From Flavobacteriales bacterium (GTDB lineage Bacteria > Bacteroidota > Bacteroidia > Flavobacteriales_D > JAHECK01): a DNA stretch of 55,990 bases. A program made the position numbers and the translations under genes. This document shows, piece by piece, positions 34,909-48,000 of the stretch (positions are counted from its first letter, which is position 1; the number at the start of each line of letters is the position of its first letter). Location of the stretch: NCBI GenBank assembly GCA_024641785.1, contig JAHECK010000004.1, positions 1 to 55,990 on the forward strand. The letters are read 5' to 3'. Below the pieces are notes generated by a model that was not told the origin of the DNA, did not search any database, and was given only the letters and a program-made list of their open reading frames with translations.

Positions 34909-36099
34909 TTACTGAATAACACCGGATCCGATCAACTCTTCACCATTATACCATGCCACAAATTGTCCGGAAGCTATTCCAATTTGAGCTTCTTCAAATA
35001 TGACAAAGAGATATTCTTTTCCCATATGCAATGTAGCTTTCTGTAAATCTTGTCTATAGCGGATTCTAGCAAGATAATCTATACTTTCTCCTGTTTTAAG
35101 GGCGAGATCTTCCCTTAACCAATGAATATCTTCAATAGCTACTCTCAATCCTCTTCTTTGTAAACCAGGATGCTGACTTCCTTGCCCGGTATAGATCAAA
35201 TTATTTACCGTATCGGTTTCAAGAATAAATAAGGGTTCGGGAGTACCACCAACATTTAAGCCTTTGCGCTGACCTATCGTAAAATAATGTGCACCACGAT
35301 GACTTCCAATCACTTTCCCTTCATTCTTAGTATAGGAATACTTTTCACTCAAAGTCATCAAAACTTCAGGGTCATTAAAGTTCCCTTCAGTCTTATTTTT
35401 TTGAAAAAGGATGTTATTCTGATCGACTTCTATAATATCTCCTGTCTTCGCTTTTAATTGTTGCTGTAAAAAATCGGGGAGCTTAACCTTTCCAATAAAA
35501 CAAAGTCCTTGTGAATCTTTCTTATCGGCTGTTACCAGGTTGAGCTCAGTGGCTATTCTTCTGACTTCAGATTTTTCTAAATGTCCGATCGGAAAAAGTG
35601 CTTTACTTAATTGCTCCTGATTTAACTGGCATAAAAAATAACTTTGATCTTTATTTTTATCCTTACCGGCAAGCAGTTTATAAATAGTCTTACCCTCTTT
35701 TTCGAAGGATTCTTTTTGACAATAATGTCCGGTCGCTACAAAATCAGCATCAAGTTGTTTTGCAGCTTCAAGAAAAACATCAAATTTTATTTCGCGATTG
35801 CAAAGAATATCCGGATTTGGCGTTCGTCCTGCTTCGTATTCTTTAAACATATAATCGACGATCCTTTCCTTATACTCTTCACTAAGATCAATCGTTTGAA
35901 AAGGAATTCCAAGCTTCTGGGCAACAAGCATAGCATCATTACTATCATCAATCCAAGGGCACTCATCAGAAATAGTAACAGAAGTATCGTGCCAGTTCTT
36001 CATGAACATAGCGATCACTTCATAGCCTTGCTCCTTTAATAAGTAAGCGGCAACCGAAGAATCTACTCCACCAGATAAGCCAACAACTACACGTTTCAT
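34909..36099 (-). CDS. mnmA: tRNA 2-thiouridine(34) synthase
   Basis: A 396-residue ATP-dependent thiolase that puts sulfur on U34 of Lys, Glu and Gln tRNAs. The PP-loop GLSGGVDSS (7-15) binds ATP, and the two catalytic cysteines are Cys100 in [13 protein letters not shown] and Cys200 in SQGLCFIGK. The central RKGLNVGG near 275 and a C-terminal barrel complete the family architecture. The insertion [20 protein letters not shown] (residues 36-55) near the front is typical of the Bacteroidota form. The gene is monocistronic; an exact -7 element lies 17 bases before the start. Confidence 0.95.
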
Positions 36100-36115
36100 T
36101 TCTTAAAATAAAATG

Positions 36116-36123
36116 CAAAATTA
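36116..36123 (-). promoter_or_regulatory. Predicted promoter -7 element of mnmA
   Basis: Minus-strand TAATTTTG, exact TAnnTTTG match, 17 bases before the mnmA start codon; predicted transcript start near 36112. Confidence 0.5.
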
Positions 36124-36332
36124 AGAAAGCATTCTTTTTATCAGCGCATTTAAATGATTTAATAAAAAGAAGTCAGGAGTTACAGAAGGTATAGAAGATC
36201 AGAAACTGATTTATGAGCTATTTTACTATCCATGTTTATTTTTAATTAATCATGAACAGTTAGAGATTCGAGAAGGATGAAGTTTTTAGAAAATCATGGG
36301 CATGTTATTTTAATCAATCCTCAAACTAACAA

Positions 36333-37406
36333 TTAAACGATATCCAAATTCAACATTAAGTTTATATTTTTCCTAACAAGGGCACCCATAGAAGTGCATT
36401 CTGAAAAAACCTCGCTCTTATGAAAACGATTTAATTCATTGATCAGCTGTTGTCTTTTTTCAGGAGTTGAAATCAAATCATTCTCCATTACTTTAATTAA
36501 GTGACGATACTGATATTCGGCAAGTGAAATTCGCTTTGCCATTAAAGCCCTTTCTTCTGCCTGATATTGCCGGATCGATTCTTTTGAAAGAAAGTCCAGT
36601 GATAATTTTACATATTGAAAATTCTCTGTAAAAAACTGGGGAAAATAAAATCTTAGGCGGCCTTCATAAGCCTGCTGATCAAAATCGATGGTACGAATAC
36701 GGTATTGGATCTGATCGAAATCGGGTGTCATATCGATTACGAAATTGTAAGAGCGCATATCGCCTAATAAACGAAGAAAGCAACGCTCATTAAATTTTAC
36801 AAATTCCTTCGATAATCGAACTTTATTATGAGGGTTATGCAATAGATCATTCTTTAAAAATTGATCTCCAGGAATTCCCATAATATGTTCTTCTACGAGC
36901 GTATTATTAAAAACGAAGTAGTTTATCTTATTGGGAGAAACGATATGCTCCAATTCTAAACCATAAATTCTAGATGCATCGGCTTGTTTTATATAATAAT
37001 AGTCGTAATTATCATTTACGGTATTTTTTATTTTTATTCTGAATGGATTTGAATTTCCAAATAAGCAATAATCAATACGATCTACCGAAAGGTGTTTGAT
37101 TTGCTCCATGTTTCCATCAGAAGCGAGTAAGACATAAGTTTGAAGTAAGCCGGTATAAATCTCATCCTGATTGCTCGGAGGATAGGAAACGATCATCCAT
37201 AAAGTGTCATTTCCGTCATTATCCAATAATGGAAAGGACATATCATACCTTAATAGATCTTCATAATTAAGAGGGAGATCCTGGCTTCTAAAAAATTTTT
37301 TTAAGTAGTTATGTAATTCTGTTTTAACAGGATAACCGGGCTTTTTCCTTAAATTCGAATCTCTCCCGTCTTCTGGATCTTCGATATGCAGATCATGTAT
37401 TGGCAT
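36333..37406 (-). CDS. Unrecognised protein with kinase-like active-site pattern
   Basis: A 357-residue soluble protein without signal peptide or membrane segment; I do not recognise a named family. The order of motifs resembles a protein-kinase-like fold: a possible beta-3 lysine (Lys140 in YYYIKQADASR), a following acidic helix (ELEH, 151-154), a hinge with VEEHIMGIPG (171-180), LGDMRSYNFVID (214-225) with Asp216 and Asn221 spaced like the catalytic-loop D-x4-N, and IDFDQQ (240-245) in the place of the DFG metal-binding Asp. The C-terminal third is helical and charged. It starts 29 bases after the stop of the giant SprB-repeat gene on the same strand, so they are probably one transcript. 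Kinase activity is inference from motif order only. Confidence 0.75.
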   Translation of the reverse strand: MPIHDLHIEDPEDGRDSNLRKKPGYPVKTELHNYLKKFFRSQDLPLNYEDLLRYDMSFPLLDNDGNDTLWMIVSYPPSNQDEIYTGLLQTYVLLASDGNMEQIKHLSVDRIDYCLFGNSNPFRIKIKNTVNDNYDYYYIKQADASRIYGLELEHIVSPNKINYFVFNNTLVEEHIMGIPGDQFLKNDLLHNPHNKVRLSKEFVKFNERCFLRLLGDMRSYNFVIDMTPDFDQIQYRIRTIDFDQQAYEGRLRFYFPQFFTENFQYVKLSLDFLSKESIRQYQAEERALMAKRISLAEYQYRHLIKVMENDLISTPEKRQQLINELNRFHKSEVFSECTSMGALVRKNINLMLNLDIV

Positions 37407-37435
37407 GGAATAAAAATACTACTTCTGGGTGAAAC

Positions 37436-40400
37436 TTAGCGAAGCAAATTAACGGTTCCGTTTTTTTCAAATAATCGGCCTCCTGAATAATAGCTCACCA
37501 TATAAACATAAACGATAGGCTGCATCGCTGCACCATTATTACTATTCCCATCCCATCCAAGCGATCGATCGAAACTTTGAAAAACCAGGACTCCACTTCG
37601 ATCATAAATACGCATTATAAAACCTTTTTCATCTATCGTAGAACCCTCTACTTTAAATACATCATTGATTCCATCACCATCAGGAGAAAATGAATTTGGA
37701 ATATAGACTCGATGATCTTCTTTTACAGTAATTGATTTTTCATATTCATCTTCGCATCCAAAATCGCTGCTTACACTTAGCACTGCCATATATACTCCAA
37801 AAGACTTATATGTATGTTCAGGAGCGAGCATTTGGCCGCTGGTGAATTCGCCTAAAGCTTGATCTCCAGGAGAACCACTTACAAGGACTCCATCTCCAAA
37901 ATCCCATTCCATAAGGGCTGAGTTTCCACTAAGGTCTGTAAAGATCACTTCCCCTTCTGCCATAGAAACTACATCGTCGCTTACTTCAAAAAAGGCTTCG
38001 ATCACGTTTGGATTTTCAGGAACCATCCATTGAGAAACGAAACAACCATTCGCATCAATAACTTTAAAACGACTTGAAACTTCATTCAAATCACTAAAAA
38101 AGCTTGAAGAAACAGGGTCTTCATCATTCAGAACAAATTGTAAGGGTTCCACTCCACCGGAGACTACCTCCACATTCATCCATAGATCGCTTGGATCGCA
38201 GCTTGGAGAAAAAGGATATAATTCAAATTCGATCTGAGGAGGCTCAGTCGGAGTAACACTTGCTATCGTAAAACAGTTATTGTCAAGACTGTCAATAACC
38301 ATAACACTATAGGTAATTCCAGCCTCTAAATTAGCCTGAGTACTTGTTGTCACATCGTTGGTACTATTGTCCCATTGAAACAAAAACTGACCTGAACCAC
38401 CAGAATATTGAACCGTGGCTACTCCATTATCATCGCCAAAACAGTTTAATTCAACCGCTTCTATAAATGCACTCATGTTCTCAATTTGCAATAATGAAGT
38501 ATCAAGCATTGCAATACATCCATTTGAATCCGTGGTAATAATTTGATAGGATCCAATGGGAAGTCCATCAAAAGAAACGTAAGAACCAAGTTGAGTTGAA
38601 TTATTTAAATCGCTTTGGTATGGTGTACTTCCTCCGCTTATCTCGATATTTATCACACCACTATTAAGATCTGAACAGGTAACAGGATGAATTGAACTGA
38701 CATTGATGATCAGAGAATCCGGTTGAGAGACTACAATTGAAGAATCTTCTATGCATCCATTACTATCTTTTATATATAAAGTATATTCATTTGCGATCAA
38801 TCCGTTAAAAACACCGCTGTTTAACCAAGTGACTTGATCCATTGAAAATGTATAAGAGGGATTTCCACCGGAACCAATGAGTTCAATACTTCCATCATCG
38901 AATCCGAAACATGAAACATCTTCTACAACAGGCACAATAAAAATCTCCAGGGCATTAGGTATAAAAACAAATGTTGAATCGCTGCAACCTAGGCTATCCA
39001 CCCCAAAAAACTGGGTCATACCGGGATAAAGATTGTGAAATGTATCGCTAGTTTGTAATTCGTCAATACTTAATCCATATGTGGTCCCGCCATTTCCACC
39101 ACTTGATCCAACAAGAACAGTTGCCGTAGAATCCCCAAAACAAGCCGGAGGAACGAGGGCTAAAACATCAATATCAAAGGGCTCTGCTTCATAAAGACTT
39201 ACAATTTGTGAGACATTACATCCATACTGATCCGTAATACTTATATAATAAGCTCCATCATTTAAATTGCTGACTATAGTATCAGTAAAATTTCCTATGC
39301 CAGGAATAAAATAGTTATATGAAGGAGTACCTCCGCTCACTGCGATAGAAAAACTTCCATTTGCATCTCCAAAACATGTTGGGTTTGTAGTAAGAATAGT
39401 ATCAATTAGTAAGACTGAAGGTTCGGTGATCTCAAATTCGTATTCGATAGAACATCCCGAAGTATCGCTGATATAGAGCGTATATAAAGCGGAAGCCAAG
39501 TTATTAAAACTGCCAATTGTAGAAATTTCGGAAGTATTAAGCTCATATTCAAGATCACCACTTCCTCCATTTGCATTAAAAAAAGCACTTCCATTGTTAA
39601 ATCCAAAACAACTCACATTAGAAATAATATCATTTTGTAAATAAATACTATCAGGTTCCTCTATTGTAAATGAGAATTCGGCCTGACAATTATTTGAATC
39701 TAGAACCATGATCTCGTGTATCCCTGCATCCAAATTATTTATGAATTGATTTGTTCCATTACTTAGAGTATCAATAAAATAATAGTAGGGTGCGGTTCCT
39801 CCTGAAACGATCACTTCTACAATGGCATTCTCATCTCCAAAGCAATTCAGCGGATTTATTTCATTAATTAAAATTCCTAAGGAAGATGGTGAATTGATCT
39901 CTATGACAGTATCATTCGTACAAAAATTACCATCACTAATGCTAATAGTATAAGTGCCATCGCCCAATCCGGTAAATAATCCATTGGTATTTGAAACCGA
40001 TCCCGGAGATAGGGTATAATTAACTATTCCACTGGTGTTTTCTGCAGATAATGCAATAAAAGCATCGCTCATACCAAAACAACTTGCGAATCCAATTGAA
40101 TCTATGATAATCTGAACCTCCTGAGGATCATTTATTACAAAACTCAAACTATCGTTACAACCTTGAGAGTCTTCAGCATACACATAATGATCTCCGGAAT
40201 ACAAACCCATAAATGTATTTGATACATCAAGTCCACCACCATCTAACGCATATTCATATGGCCCTATACCATTAGAAATTGAAAAAGAAACTACTGCATC
40301 ATCATATCCAAAACAACTTGGAGGACTTATATTGTTCAGTTGCAAATTGAGTTGAGTAAGTAAAAAGATCTCCACTTCCACTTCAGCCATACAACCTGTA

Positions 40401-43400
40401 GCATCCATTACATTTACAATATAAGATCCTTCCTCAAGATTTGTAAACGTATTATCTGCCGAATAATTAATTCCATCGATCGAATACTGATAAGGGCTGG
40501 TGCCTGTTGTTCCATTTACCGTAACACTTCCCAAATTGCCATTATTGCAAAGAATATTCTGTTGAGAATAAATAGATCCTTGAAGTAAACTCTCCTGCAA
40601 TACTGCAACCTCAACAGAGTCAGAACAGCCATCATCATCAATTACCCAGGTTTGATATACTCCATTATCTAATCCTGTTGCATGCCCTCCCGGTATGAAT
40701 GTTCCGTTCACATAAAAATCATAGCCCGGGTCTCCTCCACTTGCACTTAACCAAAATTCTCCGGTCGCATCATCCACACAATTAATATTCATAACTGAAT
40801 CTAATTGAATTTCAAGAGTTTGAACACTATTAAGCAAGCTGGTTATAGTCGCCACACAGCCATTGTCATCTGTAACAAGCACCGTATAGAATCCTTCTCC
40901 TAAATTATTAAAAGAGCCTCCCGCTTGAGGAGGATTTCCATTGAGTTGGAAAGTAAAAGGATATAAACCTGAAATTACCCCAACACTTAAAGCACCATTA
41001 TTCACTGTCTCACAAGATGGTGGTGTTTGTGTTGCCCAAGCTAATGATAGTGGAGATGTAGCAACGATGGAAAAATTTTCACTGCTTGTACAGCCATTTG
41101 CATCTACAACATAAAAAGTATAATTCCCTACACCAAGGTTTGAAAAAAGAGGATTTATTTGAAAATTAATATTATCCAAAGAATACATTTTTGGAGAGGT
41201 CCCTCCTGTTCCGGCTCCGGAAACAGAGCCGTTTGTATCGATCATACATGAAACATTTACCACCCCCATAATTTCGGCGTCCAATGCGAAATTTGGTTCA
41301 TTTACAACTATAATTTCTGTAATGATACAACCATTAGCATCTATAAAATCTATATTATAGGTCCCAGCAAAAAGAGAGGGTATCATTGTATTAGCCGTTA
41401 GCCAGGCACCGCTATTAATTCTGTAATTATAGGGTGATTGCCCTCCGCTAATAGAAAAATAGATAATTCCATTTTCTCCACCATAACATAAAACATCTTG
41501 AATTGAATCGATGGAAACTGAAAATAAAGGGACCCCAATAATATTAACATTTTGAACAGTTTCACAAAGATTTGTATCTACGATCGTTACACTGTAGGGA
41601 CCTGCACTTAAACCAGTATAAAAAGGAACAGACTGCAATGGACCAGCGTTTAATGCGTATTGATAAGGCTCTGCACTTCCATTTGGACTTAAATAAATTG
41701 CTCCATCGCTATCTCCAAAACAAGTGGGTGCTAACAATGAATCTACATTTACAGAGGGTGCAGCAATCGCTTCAATTGTAAAGGTAGAATCATAAATACA
41801 GGCATTTGCATCTTGTATCCAAAAAGTATGGTCCCCCGGAGTTAAGCCACTAAAAATGAAAACCGGTGAATAGGCATTTCCATCTGAGGAATAGCTATAA
41901 GGAGCTATTCCGTCCTGACCTTGAATTTCCAGAGTTCCATTTGGCGAACCCGGACAAAGTGCCGTACTTCCCGATACTAGTTCAATATGAATTTGATTCT
42001 GTTGGGCCAAAGTAATTGTAGTGTCAAAAAGACATCCGTTCTGATCCTGGATCAAGAAAAAATAAGTAGAATCACTAAGACCGGTAAACAAGCCATTGAC
42101 TTCCCAATTTGAACCAAAATCAATCGAATAACTATAAGGTCCGGTCCCATTATTTCCTAATAAATCAATAAGGCCATCCATACTTTGTTCACATATCGGA
42201 TCAACAAGGTTTTGAACTGACGCTCCAACCGAGGAAGATTCAAAAAGATACACACTTGAAACGACGCTGCATCCGAGATCTGATAGAAGCGTAATCGTAT
42301 GAGGACCAATAGAAACATTGCTAAATACATTTGATAATTGCGGAATTCCATTATCTAAAATATATTGATAGGGAGCTACACCACCCGATCCTATCACCGT
42401 AATAGCACCGTCACTCGCTGTGCCGCAGATCGCATCCGTAACAATAAGATCATCGATCAGAAGGTCATTGGTTTCGACTAAATCTATAATAATACTAGCA
42501 GTACATAAATTAGCATCTAAAACATCGATCGTATAGGTGCCGGAAGACAAAGAAGTGAAAAGACCGGTCGACTGATTCGGATTTCCATTGAGGGAATAAG
42601 TATAAGGACCTACTCCTCCACTTGCTCCTACTTCAATTGAACCATTTGATGAAATATCACAATAGACATCTACTTTATTGATCAATGAAATGCTTAAGGG
42701 ACTTTGACTCCCAAGAATATAGGTTAAGGTAAATACACAGCCATTAGCATCTCTAACTTTAAACACATAAGACCCAGAGACCAATCCGGTAAAAATTCCT
42801 GAAATTTGCCATGGATTCGTTCCATTTCTATATTCATAGGGTCCAACTCCACCTGCACCTATCAGTTCAAGACTCCCGTTATTAGCTCCTGAACATAATG
42901 GTATTTGTACGTTTTGAATTTGAAAATATAAGCTATCAGGTTCCTGAATTGTTATAAGACTATCGATTTCACAATCATTATCATCGATGGCAGTAATTTG
43001 ATAATCTCCGGCTCCAAGACTGCCAAAAAAAGGGGTATTTACATCATTTGCTCCATCGAGTTGAAAGGTATAAGGAGGATCTCCTCCAATAACTTCAAAT
43101 GAAATTTCACCACCGGTTCCATTAAAGCAATTCGGATCAATAAGGTTAAAATTAGCCAGATTAAATGGTAATGGTTCAGTAAATAAGAGTGAAATGGAGT
43201 CGGTACACCCGTTCAGATCTTCCAGCCAAAACTGATATTGACCCGCCGTTAGGTTGCTAAATAATCCGCTATCTTGATAAGAAATTCCATCAACGGAAAA
43301 AATATATGGAGAAGTCCCTAACTCCCCAAGTAATTGAACCGAACCTGAAGCGGAACCATAACAGTCGATATTAATCTGATTAATAGCAACAATATTTATT

Positions 43401-43942
43401 TGAGATAGAGCAAGTATTTCAGTATTAACAGTATCCGTGTGACCAACTCCATCGACGGCAATGATCTGATAATTTCCACTTCCTAAATTATAGAAATCTC
43501 CATCCGATTGAAAATTCGCCCCTCCATCAATAGAATACTGAAAAGGAGCACAACCAGATGATGCTGAAACAATAATAAACCCATCTGTATTTCCAAAGCA
43601 AGCTACATCAGCCCATTGGAAAACACTTATGACTAATTGACTAGCTATATCAATGTTAAAATTGATTGTAAAAACAGCATCATTTGCATCGTTAATGACG
43701 ATACTATGATCTCCAACAACTAAATTTAAAAAATCACCATTCGACTGAATGATTGATGCATCAAGTGTATAGGTATATGGAGGAAGCCCATCTAAACCAA
43801 TTACTGATATCGACCCAATAGAAGGAAGTTCACATCCCGGCTGATTTATGGACACAATTTCTCCCGACAGGTCTTGACCTGTTACAAATAATGGAAGCAA
43901 AAGCAACCATAGGAGATACCATTTTTTTAACCCACCCTCCAT
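37436..43942 (-). CDS. Giant SprB-repeat adhesin-like protein with T9SS type B (gliding-associated) sorting domain
   Basis: A 2168-residue secreted surface protein. A signal peptide (about 1-22, LLLPLFVTGQ) is followed by roughly 25 consecutive SprB-type repeats of about 78 residues (about 25-1975), each of the form CFG-x-x-DG, GG-x-x-PY-x-YS, F-x-x-L-x-x-G-x-Y, then D-x-NGC; repeats carry paired cysteines and acidic turns. A PKD-like domain follows (about 1975-2070, MEWDFGDGVLVSGSPGDQ to HTYKSFGVYMAVLSV), and the protein ends with the CHU_C-type sorting domain (YIPNSFSPDGDGINDVFKVE, then YDRSGVLVFQS and NGTVNLLR). It would be exported by the T9SS and carried or anchored at the cell surface, in gliding or adhesion. 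The nucleotide sequences of repeats have diverged, so the array is old. Confidence 0.92.
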   Translation of the reverse strand: MEGGLKKWYLLWLLLLPLFVTGQDLSGEIVSINQPGCELPSIGSISVIGLDGLPPYTYTLDASIIQSNGDFLNLVVGDHSIVINDANDAVFTINFNIDIASQLVISVFQWADVACFGNTDGFIIVSASSGCAPFQYSIDGGANFQSDGDFYNLGSGNYQIIAVDGVGHTDTVNTEILALSQINIVAINQINIDCYGSASGSVQLLGELGTSPYIFSVDGISYQDSGLFSNLTAGQYQFWLEDLNGCTDSISLLFTEPLPFNLANFNLIDPNCFNGTGGEISFEVIGGDPPYTFQLDGANDVNTPFFGSLGAGDYQITAIDDNDCEIDSLITIQEPDSLYFQIQNVQIPLCSGANNGSLELIGAGGVGPYEYRNGTNPWQISGIFTGLVSGSYVFKVRDANGCVFTLTYILGSQSPLSISLINKVDVYCDISSNGSIEVGASGGVGPYTYSLNGNPNQSTGLFTSLSSGTYTIDVLDANLCTASIIIDLVETNDLLIDDLIVTDAICGTASDGAITVIGSGGVAPYQYILDNGIPQLSNVFSNVSIGPHTITLLSDLGCSVVSSVYLFESSSVGASVQNLVDPICEQSMDGLIDLLGNNGTGPYSYSIDFGSNWEVNGLFTGLSDSTYFFLIQDQNGCLFDTTITLAQQNQIHIELVSGSTALCPGSPNGTLEIQGQDGIAPYSYSSDGNAYSPVFIFSGLTPGDHTFWIQDANACIYDSTFTIEAIAAPSVNVDSLLAPTCFGDSDGAIYLSPNGSAEPYQYALNAGPLQSVPFYTGLSAGPYSVTIVDTNLCETVQNVNIIGVPLFSVSIDSIQDVLCYGGENGIIYFSISGGQSPYNYRINSGAWLTANTMIPSLFAGTYNIDFIDANGCIITEIIVVNEPNFALDAEIMGVVNVSCMIDTNGSVSGAGTGGTSPKMYSLDNINFQINPLFSNLGVGNYTFYVVDANGCTSSENFSIVATSPLSLAWATQTPPSCETVNNGALSVGVISGLYPFTFQLNGNPPQAGGSFNNLGEGFYTVLVTDDNGCVATITSLLNSVQTLEIQLDSVMNINCVDDATGEFWLSASGGDPGYDFYVNGTFIPGGHATGLDNGVYQTWVIDDDGCSDSVEVAVLQESLLQGSIYSQQNILCNNGNLGSVTVNGTTGTSPYQYSIDGINYSADNTFTNLEEGSYIVNVMDATGCMAEVEVEIFLLTQLNLQLNNISPPSCFGYDDAVVSFSISNGIGPYEYALDGGGLDVSNTFMGLYSGDHYVYAEDSQGCNDSLSFVINDPQEVQIIIDSIGFASCFGMSDAFIALSAENTSGIVNYTLSPGSVSNTNGLFTGLGDGTYTISISDGNFCTNDTVIEINSPSSLGILINEINPLNCFGDENAIVEVIVSGGTAPYYYFIDTLSNGTNQFINNLDAGIHEIMVLDSNNCQAEFSFTIEEPDSIYLQNDIISNVSCFGFNNGSAFFNANGGSGDLEYELNTSEISTIGSFNNLASALYTLYISDTSGCSIEYEFEITEPSVLLIDTILTTNPTCFGDANGSFSIAVSGGTPSYNYFIPGIGNFTDTIVSNLNDGAYYISITDQYGCNVSQIVSLYEAEPFDIDVLALVPPACFGDSTATVLVGSSGGNGGTTYGLSIDELQTSDTFHNLYPGMTQFFGVDSLGCSDSTFVFIPNALEIFIVPVVEDVSCFGFDDGSIELIGSGGNPSYTFSMDQVTWLNSGVFNGLIANEYTLYIKDSNGCIEDSSIVVSQPDSLIINVSSIHPVTCSDLNSGVINIEISGGSTPYQSDLNNSTQLGSYVSFDGLPIGSYQIITTDSNGCIAMLDTSLLQIENMSAFIEAVELNCFGDDNGVATVQYSGGSGQFLFQWDNSTNDVTTSTQANLEAGITYSVMVIDSLDNNCFTIASVTPTEPPQIEFELYPFSPSCDPSDLWMNVEVVSGGVEPLQFVLNDEDPVSSSFFSDLNEVSSRFKVIDANGCFVSQWMVPENPNVIEAFFEVSDDVVSMAEGEVIFTDLSGNSALMEWDFGDGVLVSGSPGDQALGEFTSGQMLAPEHTYKSFGVYMAVLSVSSDFGCEDEYEKSITVKEDHRVYIPNSFSPDGDGINDVFKVEGSTIDEKGFIMRIYDRSGVLVFQSFDRSLGWDGNSNNGAAMQPIVYVYMVSYYSGGRLFEKNGTVNLLR

Positions 43943-44123: not shown

Positions 44124-46046
44124 TTATCTATTGATAAATAATTTTTTACTCAATGCATTTCCATTCACAGCTATTTCAACAAAATAAATTCCATTATTAA
44201 AACCGGAAGTATTTAATATATATTGATGTGAACCACTATATAAGTTAGCTTTAGCAAGATCTGCCACTTTTTGACCAAGTGAATTAAACACAGAAATTGT
44301 AACATGAGATTCCTCAAGCATTGTAAATTTTATTAAGGAATAATCTTGAGCCGGATTAGGCATTATATTAAATGAAGTTACATTTTGTTCGATATCATTA
44401 ACAGACATAGGTATAAATTCAGATTCATCGAATCCAATTCCCTTTACATAAGCAAAATTAGTAATCGCTAATTCCCCCGAAAAATCAGGTACACATACGT
44501 AGGGTAATTCATAGTCAAAATCATCTCCTCCCGTTATACAAACCGGAGACATCGTTGCATAAATAGCCACCGTTTCAACATCGGTATCTAGGGTAAGATT
44601 TTTTACTTCTGTCCAGGTGTTATTTGTTACATCAATACCCCTTCCAAAAATGTCTGGTAGTTCATTATCTATCTCATCAACAGAAGTTAACCAACAGAAA
44701 AATAATTTTTCTCCATCTTCACTAACAGCAGCCTGTACATGGGTATATAGATCCTGGAAACTTGCTGCATCAAGAAATAGACCGGGACCTGAATTTTCAA
44801 TCGTTCCTATGATCATATCAGACCAGGTATTATCAGCATTACTTAGTGTATAATCCACTAAATAGCCCTCATAAAAGAAGCCCGTAAGATCTTCCGCATA
44901 CTGCATCACCTCACCTAAAACATGAAGGTCTCCATTGAGATCAACCACCGCATCAAAATCTCTGAAATAAGGCAAATTATTTAAAGCCGTACCTGAATTA
45001 GAATTTGCTATATCCAGTTCAGCTTGCAAAATCCATGACGCTCCATTATCCGTTGTTTTATAAACCACTGGCCGTTCTAATTCTCCATCATACTCATTTA
45101 AACAACCTCCAATGATCATATAACCAACACTTCCATCACTACTAAACGCACTGTTTATATTTCCATTTACAATAGGGAATCCTCCCGATAACTTAAAATC
45201 GGGTACAACAGCAGTATATTCCCAATCGAGTTCTTCGCTGCTTTCATTTATACTTCCTTTCCAAAAAGCATACTGCGTTAAATTTGTAATTTGATCTCCC
45301 GTCCAATTTGTTGAAATCGCATAGAAATCATCTCCTCCAACAACTAAACTACGACCCTGATAATCGACATTATATATTCCATTATCAGAGTCATTCAATG
45401 CTTGCAGAACTTGTTCATCGGCAGGTTCGCTTCCATCCATCTTTTGAGATCCAAAAAAAGTATGTGTCCAAATGGAATAGGCTCCACCAACCGAAACACA
45501 TGGTCCCATAGCGGCATAATAAGAATCATCCATAGTTCCACCTGCAGGAGTTAATAGTGCTCCCGAAGGATAACGATATCCATAAACGATAACTTCACCG
45601 TCGGGTGTTGCAAAATGAAGTCCATCATCACTTCCTCCAGTCGAATTTGAATCGACCATCATTGGGGTCAGCAGCTCATCGATTGTCCATGTAGCACCTC
45701 CATCAGTAGAGATATCATAACGCACGACTCCAGACCCTCCCAAACTAGGGAAAATGGAGACATCTTGTCTGTGAATAAAGCTAACGGCATCGAGTGCAGG
45801 ATTATAATGAACTTGATTTTGACTTGCATCGAGAATGGTATAAATATTAGAAGCGGTTCCAATGTAGATCGTTTCATTCATTTGTGATTTATCGATCACA
45901 GATCCAGAATTCGATTCATTTATTAAATGGTTATCTGAAGCAGTAGCTTCGTTCGATCTGGGAATGAGTTGCGATTGACTTGAAGATTGCGCAAAAAGCG
46001 TTGAAGCTGATATACAGATCAGCCCAATAAGTAAACGTTTTTTCAT
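44124..46046 (-). CDS. Asp-box (BNR) propeller protein with T9SS type A sorting domain
   Basis: A 640-residue exported protein with a signal peptide (1-19, ASTLFAQ). The body looks like a sialidase/sortilin-type beta-propeller with Asp-box turns: YDISTDGGATWTID near 110 and YKTTDNGASWILQ near 330, and further propeller-like strands to about 545. The C-terminal 85 residues (MPNPAQDYSLIKFTMLEESH, VFNSLGQKVADL, SGFNNGIYFVEI, LFINR) are a T9SS type A sorting domain, so it is secreted and probably attached to lipopolysaccharide. Catalytic residues of sialidases are not evident; it may bind rather than cut. Its transcript ends at its own hairpin terminator. Confidence 0.85.
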   Translation of the reverse strand: MKKRLLIGLICISASTLFAQSSSQSQLIPRSNEATASDNHLINESNSGSVIDKSQMNETIYIGTASNIYTILDASQNQVHYNPALDAVSFIHRQDVSIFPSLGGSGVVRYDISTDGGATWTIDELLTPMMVDSNSTGGSDDGLHFATPDGEVIVYGYRYPSGALLTPAGGTMDDSYYAAMGPCVSVGGAYSIWTHTFFGSQKMDGSEPADEQVLQALNDSDNGIYNVDYQGRSLVVGGDDFYAISTNWTGDQITNLTQYAFWKGSINESSEELDWEYTAVVPDFKLSGGFPIVNGNINSAFSSDGSVGYMIIGGCLNEYDGELERPVVYKTTDNGASWILQAELDIANSNSGTALNNLPYFRDFDAVVDLNGDLHVLGEVMQYAEDLTGFFYEGYLVDYTLSNADNTWSDMIIGTIENSGPGLFLDAASFQDLYTHVQAAVSEDGEKLFFCWLTSVDEIDNELPDIFGRGIDVTNNTWTEVKNLTLDTDVETVAIYATMSPVCITGGDDFDYELPYVCVPDFSGELAITNFAYVKGIGFDESEFIPMSVNDIEQNVTSFNIMPNPAQDYSLIKFTMLEESHVTISVFNSLGQKVADLAKANLYSGSHQYILNTSGFNNGIYFVEIAVNGNALSKKLFINR

Positions 46047-46126
46047 AGTAGTTAATTAGGTTAAACAATAGTTTTTTAAATATAATAAATCCTAATTAAT
46101 TAAATTTCACTCTTTTATAAAAATAA

Positions 46127-46158
46127 AAAAGCCGTCCCGAAAATTCGGGACGGCTTTT
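46127..46158 (-). terminator. Rho-independent terminator downstream of the first PA-domain T9SS gene
   Basis: A 13-15-bp perfect stem (AAAAGCCGTCCCGAA and its complement) with a tiny A/T loop, followed on the minus strand by T residues. The A/T flanks on both sides would allow it to work in both directions. Confidence 0.88.
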
Positions 46159-46176
46159 CAATAAAATTAATGATTC

Positions 46177-47916
46177 TTATTTAGAGATCACAACATTAAA
46201 GTTACTTACATTACCATTTGCGTAACGAAGACCAAAAGTATACATCCCTTTATCAAGATTTGATACATTTACTTTAAGAATTTCACCAGTACTAACACTA
46301 ACAGATTGTGTTTCAACTAATTTTCCGCTAATATCAAATATATTAATGGTAGTTAAACCAGAAACATTTTTCAAAGGAATACTAATGAAATCATTAGCAG
46401 GATTAGGGTATGGAGTAACGTCGATCACATTACTTACTTCATTAATTGAATTAGCATTTGCATCGAAAAAATGAACGGCAATACCAGGACAAATTTCTGT
46501 TCCAAATCCATTAGTATACCATGCTGTACCTTCTGAATTTGGGAAAATTGGTTGTAAATAATGGTTCTGAGTTGTCGAATAATCCAATTTAGAAGAGTTG
46601 AATCCTGTGAAAATATCGTCACTTTCGTAAGCGATACAGAATAAATATCTTGCGTCATCATCAAGAATAATAGTTTCTTCAAAAGGAGCATAAACATTTA
46701 CCTCATCCATATCTTCACCAACATATTCATAAACTCCTGAAGTTAAAAGATCAAGATCTACTTCATCAACACCTGTAAAAGCGGCATCATCTAGATCATC
46801 AAATTGAAGTGTCCATTCATAAGCATAAACAGAAATTACTTCTCCATCTATTGCTACTCCATTAGTACTAGTAGCAGCAAATGTTATCCCTTTTACTCCA
46901 ACACGACTTGCATTTGGATCTTGGAAAGCAACACATATCTGAATTTCACCATCAGGAGTAGAAGGTCTGTAATAAGTAATATTATCAGGTCCTTCAGCTT
47001 CACTTGGAATGTTAGCGTATGAAAATAAGGAATCACTCATTGAAAATGGAGCATCAAACATATCATCACTTGGAAAATCATCCGGAGTTCCAGAACTAAC
47101 GGAATAAACTAATTCATATACACCATTACCGTAAGAAGATTGACTAAAAGAAGGTAATTCAACAAACACGCTATCACCAGAAAGAACTTCAACAGGGACA
47201 GATGATTCACTGTAAACACTATTTCCATCGAAAGTAATATCAGCTGTTAACACAACATCTGATTGATCATTAACACCAAAATTAGTTACCCATACTCCAA
47301 GGTCTGGAGCAAACTCAGAAGCATCTTGCGAAAGTAATTGAATACTTGAAGCTTGAGGTGCTCTAATAACATCACTTGGCTTAATACCTAGGTCATTATC
47401 AAAATAACCAGTTTTATTACCAATAAAAACAAATAATCCACCTGCTTCAATTTCAGGTCGTAAACTTTCACCGGCAATTCGAGTGATCATAACTACAGGG
47501 ATCGTTACTTCAGCTCCAACAGCTCCTCCTCCCATTGCAATAGGATCTTGATCAGCGTAGGTAATGATAACAACGGCAACTGCTCCAGCTTCTTGACAGG
47601 CCAGTGCCTTTGCTCCAAATTCGCAAACACCTCTATAAAGTACTGCTACTTTTCCATCAACATCACTAATTACAGGAGGCTCACATACCAATGAATCAGC
47701 AGTTGCTGATCCATCATATGCCATTGCCATCTCAGCAAGTACAGCATTTGCAGGATTCAATAAATCTGGAACACTCCAGTCGGTACTAGCACTATCAGCA
47801 TACGTCATAACGTAATTTCCTTCAAGAGGAGAGGGTGCTTGAATATAAAATACAACCTGCGCCTGAGCAAAGGTGTAGCTTAAGGCAAAAAATAATAATA
47901 GTAAATTTCTTTTCAT
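46177..47916 (-). CDS. Secreted PA-domain protein with T9SS type A sorting domain (copy 1)
   Basis: A 579-residue exported protein. The start at 47916 gives signal peptide MKRNLLLLFFALSYTFAQAQ; an earlier in-frame ATG at 47970 would add 18 residues and spoil it. Residues about 65-175 form a protease-associated (PA) domain (VAVLYRGVCEFGAKALACQ, then AGAVAVVIITY and IPVVMITRIAGESLRPEIEAG), here without any attached peptidase. The middle, about 190-490, is beta-rich and unrecognised. The last 75 residues (YPNPANDFISIPL, FDISGKLVETQ, LDKGMYTFGLRYANGNVSNF) are a T9SS type A sorting domain. It is a tandem paralogue of the next gene, about 85% identical over the N-terminal third and in the sorting domain, and clearly lower in the middle. 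Role unknown. Confidence 0.88.
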   Translation of the reverse strand: MKRNLLLLFFALSYTFAQAQVVFYIQAPSPLEGNYVMTYADSASTDWSVPDLLNPANAVLAEMAMAYDGSATADSLVCEPPVISDVDGKVAVLYRGVCEFGAKALACQEAGAVAVVIITYADQDPIAMGGGAVGAEVTIPVVMITRIAGESLRPEIEAGGLFVFIGNKTGYFDNDLGIKPSDVIRAPQASSIQLLSQDASEFAPDLGVWVTNFGVNDQSDVVLTADITFDGNSVYSESSVPVEVLSGDSVFVELPSFSQSSYGNGVYELVYSVSSGTPDDFPSDDMFDAPFSMSDSLFSYANIPSEAEGPDNITYYRPSTPDGEIQICVAFQDPNASRVGVKGITFAATSTNGVAIDGEVISVYAYEWTLQFDDLDDAAFTGVDEVDLDLLTSGVYEYVGEDMDEVNVYAPFEETIILDDDARYLFCIAYESDDIFTGFNSSKLDYSTTQNHYLQPIFPNSEGTAWYTNGFGTEICPGIAVHFFDANANSINEVSNVIDVTPYPNPANDFISIPLKNVSGLTTINIFDISGKLVETQSVSVSTGEILKVNVSNLDKGMYTFGLRYANGNVSNFNVVISK

Positions 47917-47937
47917 AGTATAAAATTTTAGTTTAAA
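47917..47937 (-). promoter_or_regulatory. Conserved leader of PA-domain gene copy 1
   Basis: These 21 bases directly before the start codon are identical to 49781-49801 before copy 2, and a shared TATATTTA-type (7/8 match) -7 element lies a little further upstream in both. The shared block is probably part of the 5' leader. Confidence 0.45.
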
Positions 47938-48000
47938 AAATTGAGTAGGTGGTAAATATAATACATTCAATGTAATTATTTTTCAAACTTTTTTAATAAA

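Follow-up and report, generated by a model that had tools for sequence, protein, structure and literature searches.

A conserved family of predicted kinase-fold proteins in Bacteroidota with a possible role at the pyruvate-phosphoenolpyruvate node

What is the protein encoded directly behind an SprB-repeat adhesin gene in this Flavobacteriales genome, and on what might it act? The original prediction for this locus was of a protein with a kinase-like active-site layout, belonging to no recognised family, that modifies or controls an envelope or surface protein. The window (the whole 55,990-nucleotide stretch of DNA that was analysed) contains the corresponding open reading frame, which has an ATG start and encodes 357 amino acids. 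Its placement behind the adhesin gene was borne out by the coordinates: both genes are on the minus strand, with 29 nt between the stop of the SprB-repeat gene and the kinase-like gene (37407-37435). The mnmA gene follows on the same strand, 233 nt downstream. These 233 nt (36100-36332) hold no listed open reading frame, and in a sister genome of the genus the corresponding stretch between the kinase-like gene and mnmA holds a thioredoxin-like gene (L141:7999-8328). Two more cargo proteins of type IX secretion, both of the Por_Secre_tail kind and one of them with a PA domain, are encoded at 44124-47970, upstream of the SprB-repeat gene and on the same strand. No signal peptide, membrane helix or hydrophobic N-terminus was found in the 357-residue protein, whose 19-residue hydropathy maximum is 0.77, and the protein is probably cytosolic.

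The residues from which a kinase-like layout had been proposed were all found at the positions given for them: Lys140, EEHIMGIPG (172-180), Asp216-x4-Asn221 and IDFDQ (240-244). When the protein is shuffled, a loose version of this motif spacing arises in 5% of cases, so the bare spacing is weak evidence; it is the invariance of the residues among homologues that places the motif set beyond chance. All of 110 homologues share K140, E153, E172, H174, D216, N221, D241 and D243. In a wider set of 150 homologues, which extends to other classes of the phylum and to a divergence of ~45% identity, the same residues together with D143 and R146 are identical in every sequence, and identity reaches 98.5% or more at 52 positions. 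Lys140, Asp216, Asn221 and Asp241, the four residues on whose conservation the original prediction had staked its case, are thus all invariant (150/150). The loop GNSNPFR, between the first two strands of the N-lobe, occupies the P-loop position, from which we infer a role in nucleotide binding (Table 1).

Table 1. Positions in the window of the kinase-like gene, its two neighbours and the putative active-site elements of its product.
Feature	Position	Strand	Evidence
357-aa protein, unnamed kinase-fold family (predicted)	36333..37406	-	ORF, conservation, AF2 model, Foldseek
SprB-repeat protein, 2168 aa, CHU_C type IX secretion signal	37436..43942	-	Pfam PF13573 and PF13585
Downstream neighbour MnmA, tRNA 2-thiouridylase	34909..36099	-	Pfam PF03054, PF20259, PF20258
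Loop between first two N-lobe strands, GNSNPFR, codons 117-123	37038..37058	-	N118, P121 and R123 invariant
Lys140, predicted equivalent of the kinase beta-3 lysine	36987..36989	-	150/150; ends strand 133-141 (model)
Glu153, candidate alpha-C glutamate pairing with Lys140	36948..36950	-	150/150; helix 144-156 (model)
Putative interlobe hinge EEHIMGIPGD, codons 172-181	36864..36893	-	E172, H174, G177 and P179 invariant; D181 149/150
Putative catalytic loop DMRSYN, codons 216-221	36744..36761	-	Asp216 and Asn221 150/150; aligned by hhalign to HxD....N of Bacteroidota kinases
Putative metal-binding motif DFD in place of DFG, codons 241-243	36678..36686	-	D241 and D243 150/150; aligned by hhalign to DFG

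The structure of the whole protein was predicted using AlphaFold2 with 67 sequences (pLDDT 92.3, pTM 0.89). In the model, K140 stands at the end of a strand (133-141) and E153 in the next helix (144-156), the hinge comes after strand 169-173, D216 and N221 lie just before strand 222-229, and the DFD motif lies just after strand 232-239. The order of the conserved residues relative to the predicted secondary structure is as in a kinase. A Foldseek search of the PDB with this model returned 74 matches at E<=1e-3, and the best 50 of the 74 all have the kinase fold; PI3K-delta, LegK4, Vps34, Bud32, Eph and JAK2 JH2 are among the matches listed. A second AlphaFold2 model, of the core (residues 100-357) and built from a trimmed alignment, has a pLDDT of 91.5 and 299 PDB matches at the same threshold, of which the best 50 are all protein kinases. 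The listed PDB matches of the two models have E-values on the order of 1e-5 to 1e-3 (down to 3e-5) and Foldseek probabilities of 0.91-1.00. The top matches in a viral library were mostly Ser/Thr kinases. Global TM-scores are just 0.2-0.4, however, and the rmsd is large in all matches. The whole chain therefore superposes poorly on solved kinases, and the protein would be a remote member of the kinase fold. Profile comparison using hhalign of the family against 36 alignments ranked a set of Bacteroidota kinases first, with the hinge, D216/N221 and the DFD motif in register, but its P-value of 0.014 is near background, the best of 30 unrelated controls having reached 0.033.

The low TM-scores, the large rmsd and the near-background hhalign scores are what would be expected if the protein did not have a kinase fold at all and the Foldseek matches reflected local similarity. 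We give this very little credence, as every listed PDB match of both models is a kinase-fold protein at the probabilities given above, the conserved residues fall at kinase positions in the order of the secondary structure, and modelling the core by itself leads to the same fold. The structural comparison that had been proposed as a check thus returned a predicted fold that is kinase-like and not an unrelated one.

Taken together, the fold and the residues suggest how the enzyme may work. Lys140 and Glu153 would position ATP, Asp216 would act as the catalytic base, and Asn221 would hold metal ions with Asp241 and Asp243. Going by established kinase biochemistry, an invariant residue set of this kind should bind Mg-ATP and transfer phosphate. 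It is very probable that the protein is a divergent, catalytically intact protein-kinase-like (PKL) phosphotransferase, that is, a new family of a known fold with a predicted activity. The same fold could instead serve a transfer other than that of phosphate, such as the AMPylation carried out by SelO or the glutamylation carried out by SidJ, or the protein could be a nucleotide-binding pseudokinase scaffold. PKL proteins with non-phosphate transfer activities are known (PMC10870513), and a DFD in place of DFG and a P-loop that is not rich in glycine would be compatible with such a departure. The full Lys/Glu/Asp/Asn/Asp set is nevertheless invariant in the family. Pseudokinases by definition do not keep the full catalytic set, and we consider both of these readings improbable.

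The protein had been described as belonging to no known family, which is right for Pfam, NCBIfam, PADLOC and PHROGs. It has no match in Pfam or PADLOC even at an E-value of 10; a match to MobA in NCBIfam (18.7 bits against a cut-off of 182) and a match in PHROGs (E 0.41) were ignored. A scan of 67 homologues against Pfam gave just scattered weak matches to unrelated families, and a search of the open-access literature found no paper on the family. Catalogues of the PKL superfamily, such as that of KINtaro, comprise ~72 families, and Pfam misses many (PMC10870513). Judged by the libraries searched, the family is an undescribed one with a known fold, and it may already be among those catalogued there.

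A scan of contigs from one genome per species recovered at least 583 confirmed loci of the family. Of 100 genomes in a panel of the window's order, 38 carry the gene; of 396 from the phylum, ~99 do, with very few exceptions in single copy. About 70 of these ~99 carriers belong to the window's class, and most sampled genomes of the class carry the gene. No copy was found in plasmid or phage records. The distribution is chromosomal and mostly single-copy across Bacteroidota. Among the best loci are three from MAGs that carry the labels Verrucomicrobia, Opitutia and Fibrobacteres (taxa are bin labels as given). One genome (G188) has two divergent copies (L172 and L173), one of them directly behind a malic enzyme gene. 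Another (G347) retains no more than two short fragments interrupted by stops (L181, G347:C1:3158148-3158407), a decayed copy, and still has pyruvate carboxylase. Apparent domain fusions in long reading frames (L168, L169 and L171) were rejected, being extensions before the family start in GC-rich DNA or overlaps with a neighbouring gene.

The position of the gene within the window raises the possibility that its product acts on the adjacent SprB adhesin, or on type IX secretion, by modifying or controlling it. The two genes are on the same strand and 29 nt apart, the sister genome keeps the order of SprB gene followed by kinase-like gene with a gap of 18 nt, and nearly all carriers in a panel of 198 genomes (52 of 53) have SprA. 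Across ~180 loci, however, an SprB-type gene adjoins the kinase-like gene only within the window's genus, plus once elsewhere on the opposite strand, and the protein has no export signal. SprA is found in 154 of the 198 genomes, most of which do not have the kinase-like gene, so that many genomes with type IX secretion do without it; the overlap between the two reflects taxonomy. The single carrier without SprA (G101) is a complete, single-contig genome. This genome apparently has no type IX secretion (no SprA match), and the other panel genomes of its class have SprA. The SprB adjacency is local, at the level of the genus, and the adhesin is probably not functionally linked to the gene. We rejected a link to type IX secretion or gliding on the basis of the neighbourhoods and of G101, and consider control of the adhesin very unlikely. 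While the kinase-like layout of the original prediction has gained a predicted fold and a set of invariant residues, its proposal that an envelope or surface protein is modified or controlled is not supported, given the neighbourhoods, the missing export signal and G101.

In most cases the neighbours differ from lineage to lineage, and in 54 of 127 loci the gene has no close partner on its strand. Among the neighbours that recur are several enzymes of central carbon metabolism. A PEP synthase gene (ppsA; TIGR01418) is directly upstream in three genomes of the order, two from family f4 (G022, with a 4 nt overlap, and G035) and one from family f7 (G031, with a 3 nt gap). A pyruvate carboxylase gene (pyc; TIGR01235) is 8-28 nt upstream in three others, G086 and G098 from family f3 and G090 from family f8. 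The two ppsA-linked groups belong to different supported clades of the gene tree, as do the two pyc-linked groups, and each linkage was therefore made or kept at least twice. Two further loci have a gene for a MaeB-type malic enzyme immediately upstream, many Chitinophagaceae-like loci have an FBP aldolase gene on the downstream side, and in family f19 the gene comes after a PFOR operon. In other lineages, the neighbours are BshA, LpxA, an ABC transporter or a response regulator.

We compared the presence of the kinase-like gene with that of the two enzymes. In the panel of the order, PEP synthase occurs in 8 of 100 genomes, pyruvate carboxylase in 13 and either one in 20. The kinase-like gene is present in 18 of these 20 genomes and in 20 of the 80 others (Fisher P 1.2e-7; 1.2e-4 when stratified by family). 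When the six genomes with adjacency were left out, the family-stratified P-value was 0.011. Both assemblies that have an enzyme and no kinase-like gene are fragmented (G005, 91% complete, and G050, 87%). By the models used, neither enzyme is encoded in 20 of the genomes of the order that carry the gene. In the wider class, the gene is present in 19 of 22 genomes with pyruvate carboxylase and in ~51 of 73 without it, which is not significant (P ~0.07-0.21, a range that depends on the approximately known size of the class). Phylum-wide co-occurrence is strong but confounded by class. Note that the link to this node was noticed before it was tested, and that the presence data are only partly independent of the adjacency. 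Co-occurrence and adjacency together are suggestive of a link between the gene and the pyruvate-PEP node.

Other neighbourhoods would fit an active enzyme of the kinase fold that works elsewhere, for instance by phosphorylating a small molecule in envelope precursor, thiol or sugar metabolism, with the PEP and pyruvate genes as incidental neighbours. In nine loci from other classes of the phylum (L157, L169, L175, L176, L307, L309, L310, L327 and L328), the gene is directly behind bshA (TIGR03999), which encodes the first bacillithiol enzyme. This order is kept across several families, and a metallo-hydrolase gene is usually found downstream of the kinase-like gene on the other strand. In some f3 genomes (L145, L150, L253 and L254), the kinase-like gene immediately follows lpxA within a lipid A operon (lpxC/fabZ-lpxA-gene). 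Small molecules are the substrates of many PKL families, and the conservation along the whole chain is consistent with one fixed substrate. However, bshC is present in 196 of 198 genomes of the phylum panel and the kinase-like gene in ~1/4, so its presence does not track bacillithiol synthesis. We rejected a bacillithiol link on this ground, bshC being nearly universal and hence uninformative. The arrangement with lpxA is restricted to a single family of the order, whereas adjacency to ppsA and to pyc is each found in two separate clades of the gene tree. A job away from the pyruvate-PEP node is on balance unlikely, although it deserves more weight than the readings set aside above.

We favour a cytosolic kinase at the pyruvate-PEP node, which would follow a logic comparable to that of AceK or PpsR. 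Such a kinase would most likely phosphorylate, and so switch, a central-carbon enzyme or metabolite at this node, a step suggested by the neighbourhoods and the co-occurrence and less certain than the active site. Given that the protein is a phosphotransferase, we put a metabolic role at this node at close to even odds. The whole explanation, of an active, cytosolic, ATP-dependent PKL phosphotransferase acting at the pyruvate-to-phosphoenolpyruvate node, has in our estimate a probability of roughly 0.48. More tentatively still, the family may comprise Bacteroidota-centred regulators of pyruvate entry into gluconeogenesis, whose phosphorylation target would be PEP synthase, pyruvate carboxylase or an enzyme downstream of both. 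This is an unusually conserved, mostly single-copy family with an apparently intact kinase active site, present in most sampled genomes of the window's class and neither named nor modelled in Pfam or NCBIfam. In Bacteroidota of soils and aquatic habitats it may account for a major phosphorylation activity that has so far escaped characterisation, and its neighbour genes supply a specific and testable pathway hypothesis.

The family can be compared with the PKL superfamily as a whole (Pfam clan CL0016). It has the two-lobe layout in the predicted models (TM 0.2-0.4), the beta-3 lysine, the catalytic aspartate and asparagine of the D-x4-N loop and the metal-binding aspartate (K140, D216, N221 and D241, each 150/150), together with an invariant candidate alpha-C glutamate and a D-F-D at the metal motif. 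It differs in having a non-glycine P-loop (GNSNPFR), DFD and not DFG, an N-terminal elaboration of ~100 residues and a low global TM-score, and in having no credible match to a Pfam member of the clan even in the family-wide scan. Searches using five kinase profiles (PF07804, PF06293, PF01636 for APH, PF00069 and PF00454) gave no match in the window's genome, and hence none of them detects the gene. Four of these find proper members in relatives; PF00454 gave sub-threshold matches only. The protein accordingly does not match the profile of canonical protein kinases (PF00069).

HipA (PF07804) is likewise bacterial and has a D-x4-N loop, but its hhalign alignment with the family is out of register. 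The HipA_C search finds HipA in 15 of 30 genomes and not in the window's, and there are no plasmid or phage copies; on these grounds a HipA-type toxin was rejected. No antitoxin partner was seen. Membership among the LPS/Kdo kinases (PF06293) was also rejected, as the profile finds other kinases in relatives and not this family. As for the PI3/PI4 kinases (PF00454), PI3K-delta is the top PDB match of the whole model by E-value, Vps34 also ranks high, and K-x2-D-x2-R after beta-3, GD-x4-N and IDF[DG] can be matched by eye. The core model favours protein kinases, however, the hhalign comparison with the PI3K-alpha core is not significant and PF00454 has no match, so we treat this as resemblance only and rejected membership. 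Fam20 and HopBF1 are absent from the Pfam matches and from the best 50 PDB fold matches listed. The Lani_1194/NoeA family is a recently recognised PKL family that is likewise frequent in Flavobacteriales (PMC9758233); Lani_1194 has a fused methyltransferase and an arginine in place of the beta-3 lysine, whereas the window's family keeps the lysine and has no second domain in the loci examined.

The closest parallels to the proposed logic come from two systems of other families. AceK, the bacterial isocitrate dehydrogenase kinase/phosphatase, has the kinase fold and, through isocitrate dehydrogenase, controls a central-carbon branch point (PMC3747045, PMC6591243). It differs from the window's family in sequence (no match) and in neighbours, and there is no sign of a phosphatase activity in the window's family. 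PpsR (DUF299), a kinase/pyrophosphorylase, controls PEP synthase (PMC2817694), the enzyme whose gene lies directly in front of the window's family in two clades; PpsR is an ADP-dependent enzyme of another family, and DUF299 is not matched by the protein. If the proposed role is true, a kinase-fold family would do in Bacteroidota what PpsR and AceK do elsewhere among bacteria.
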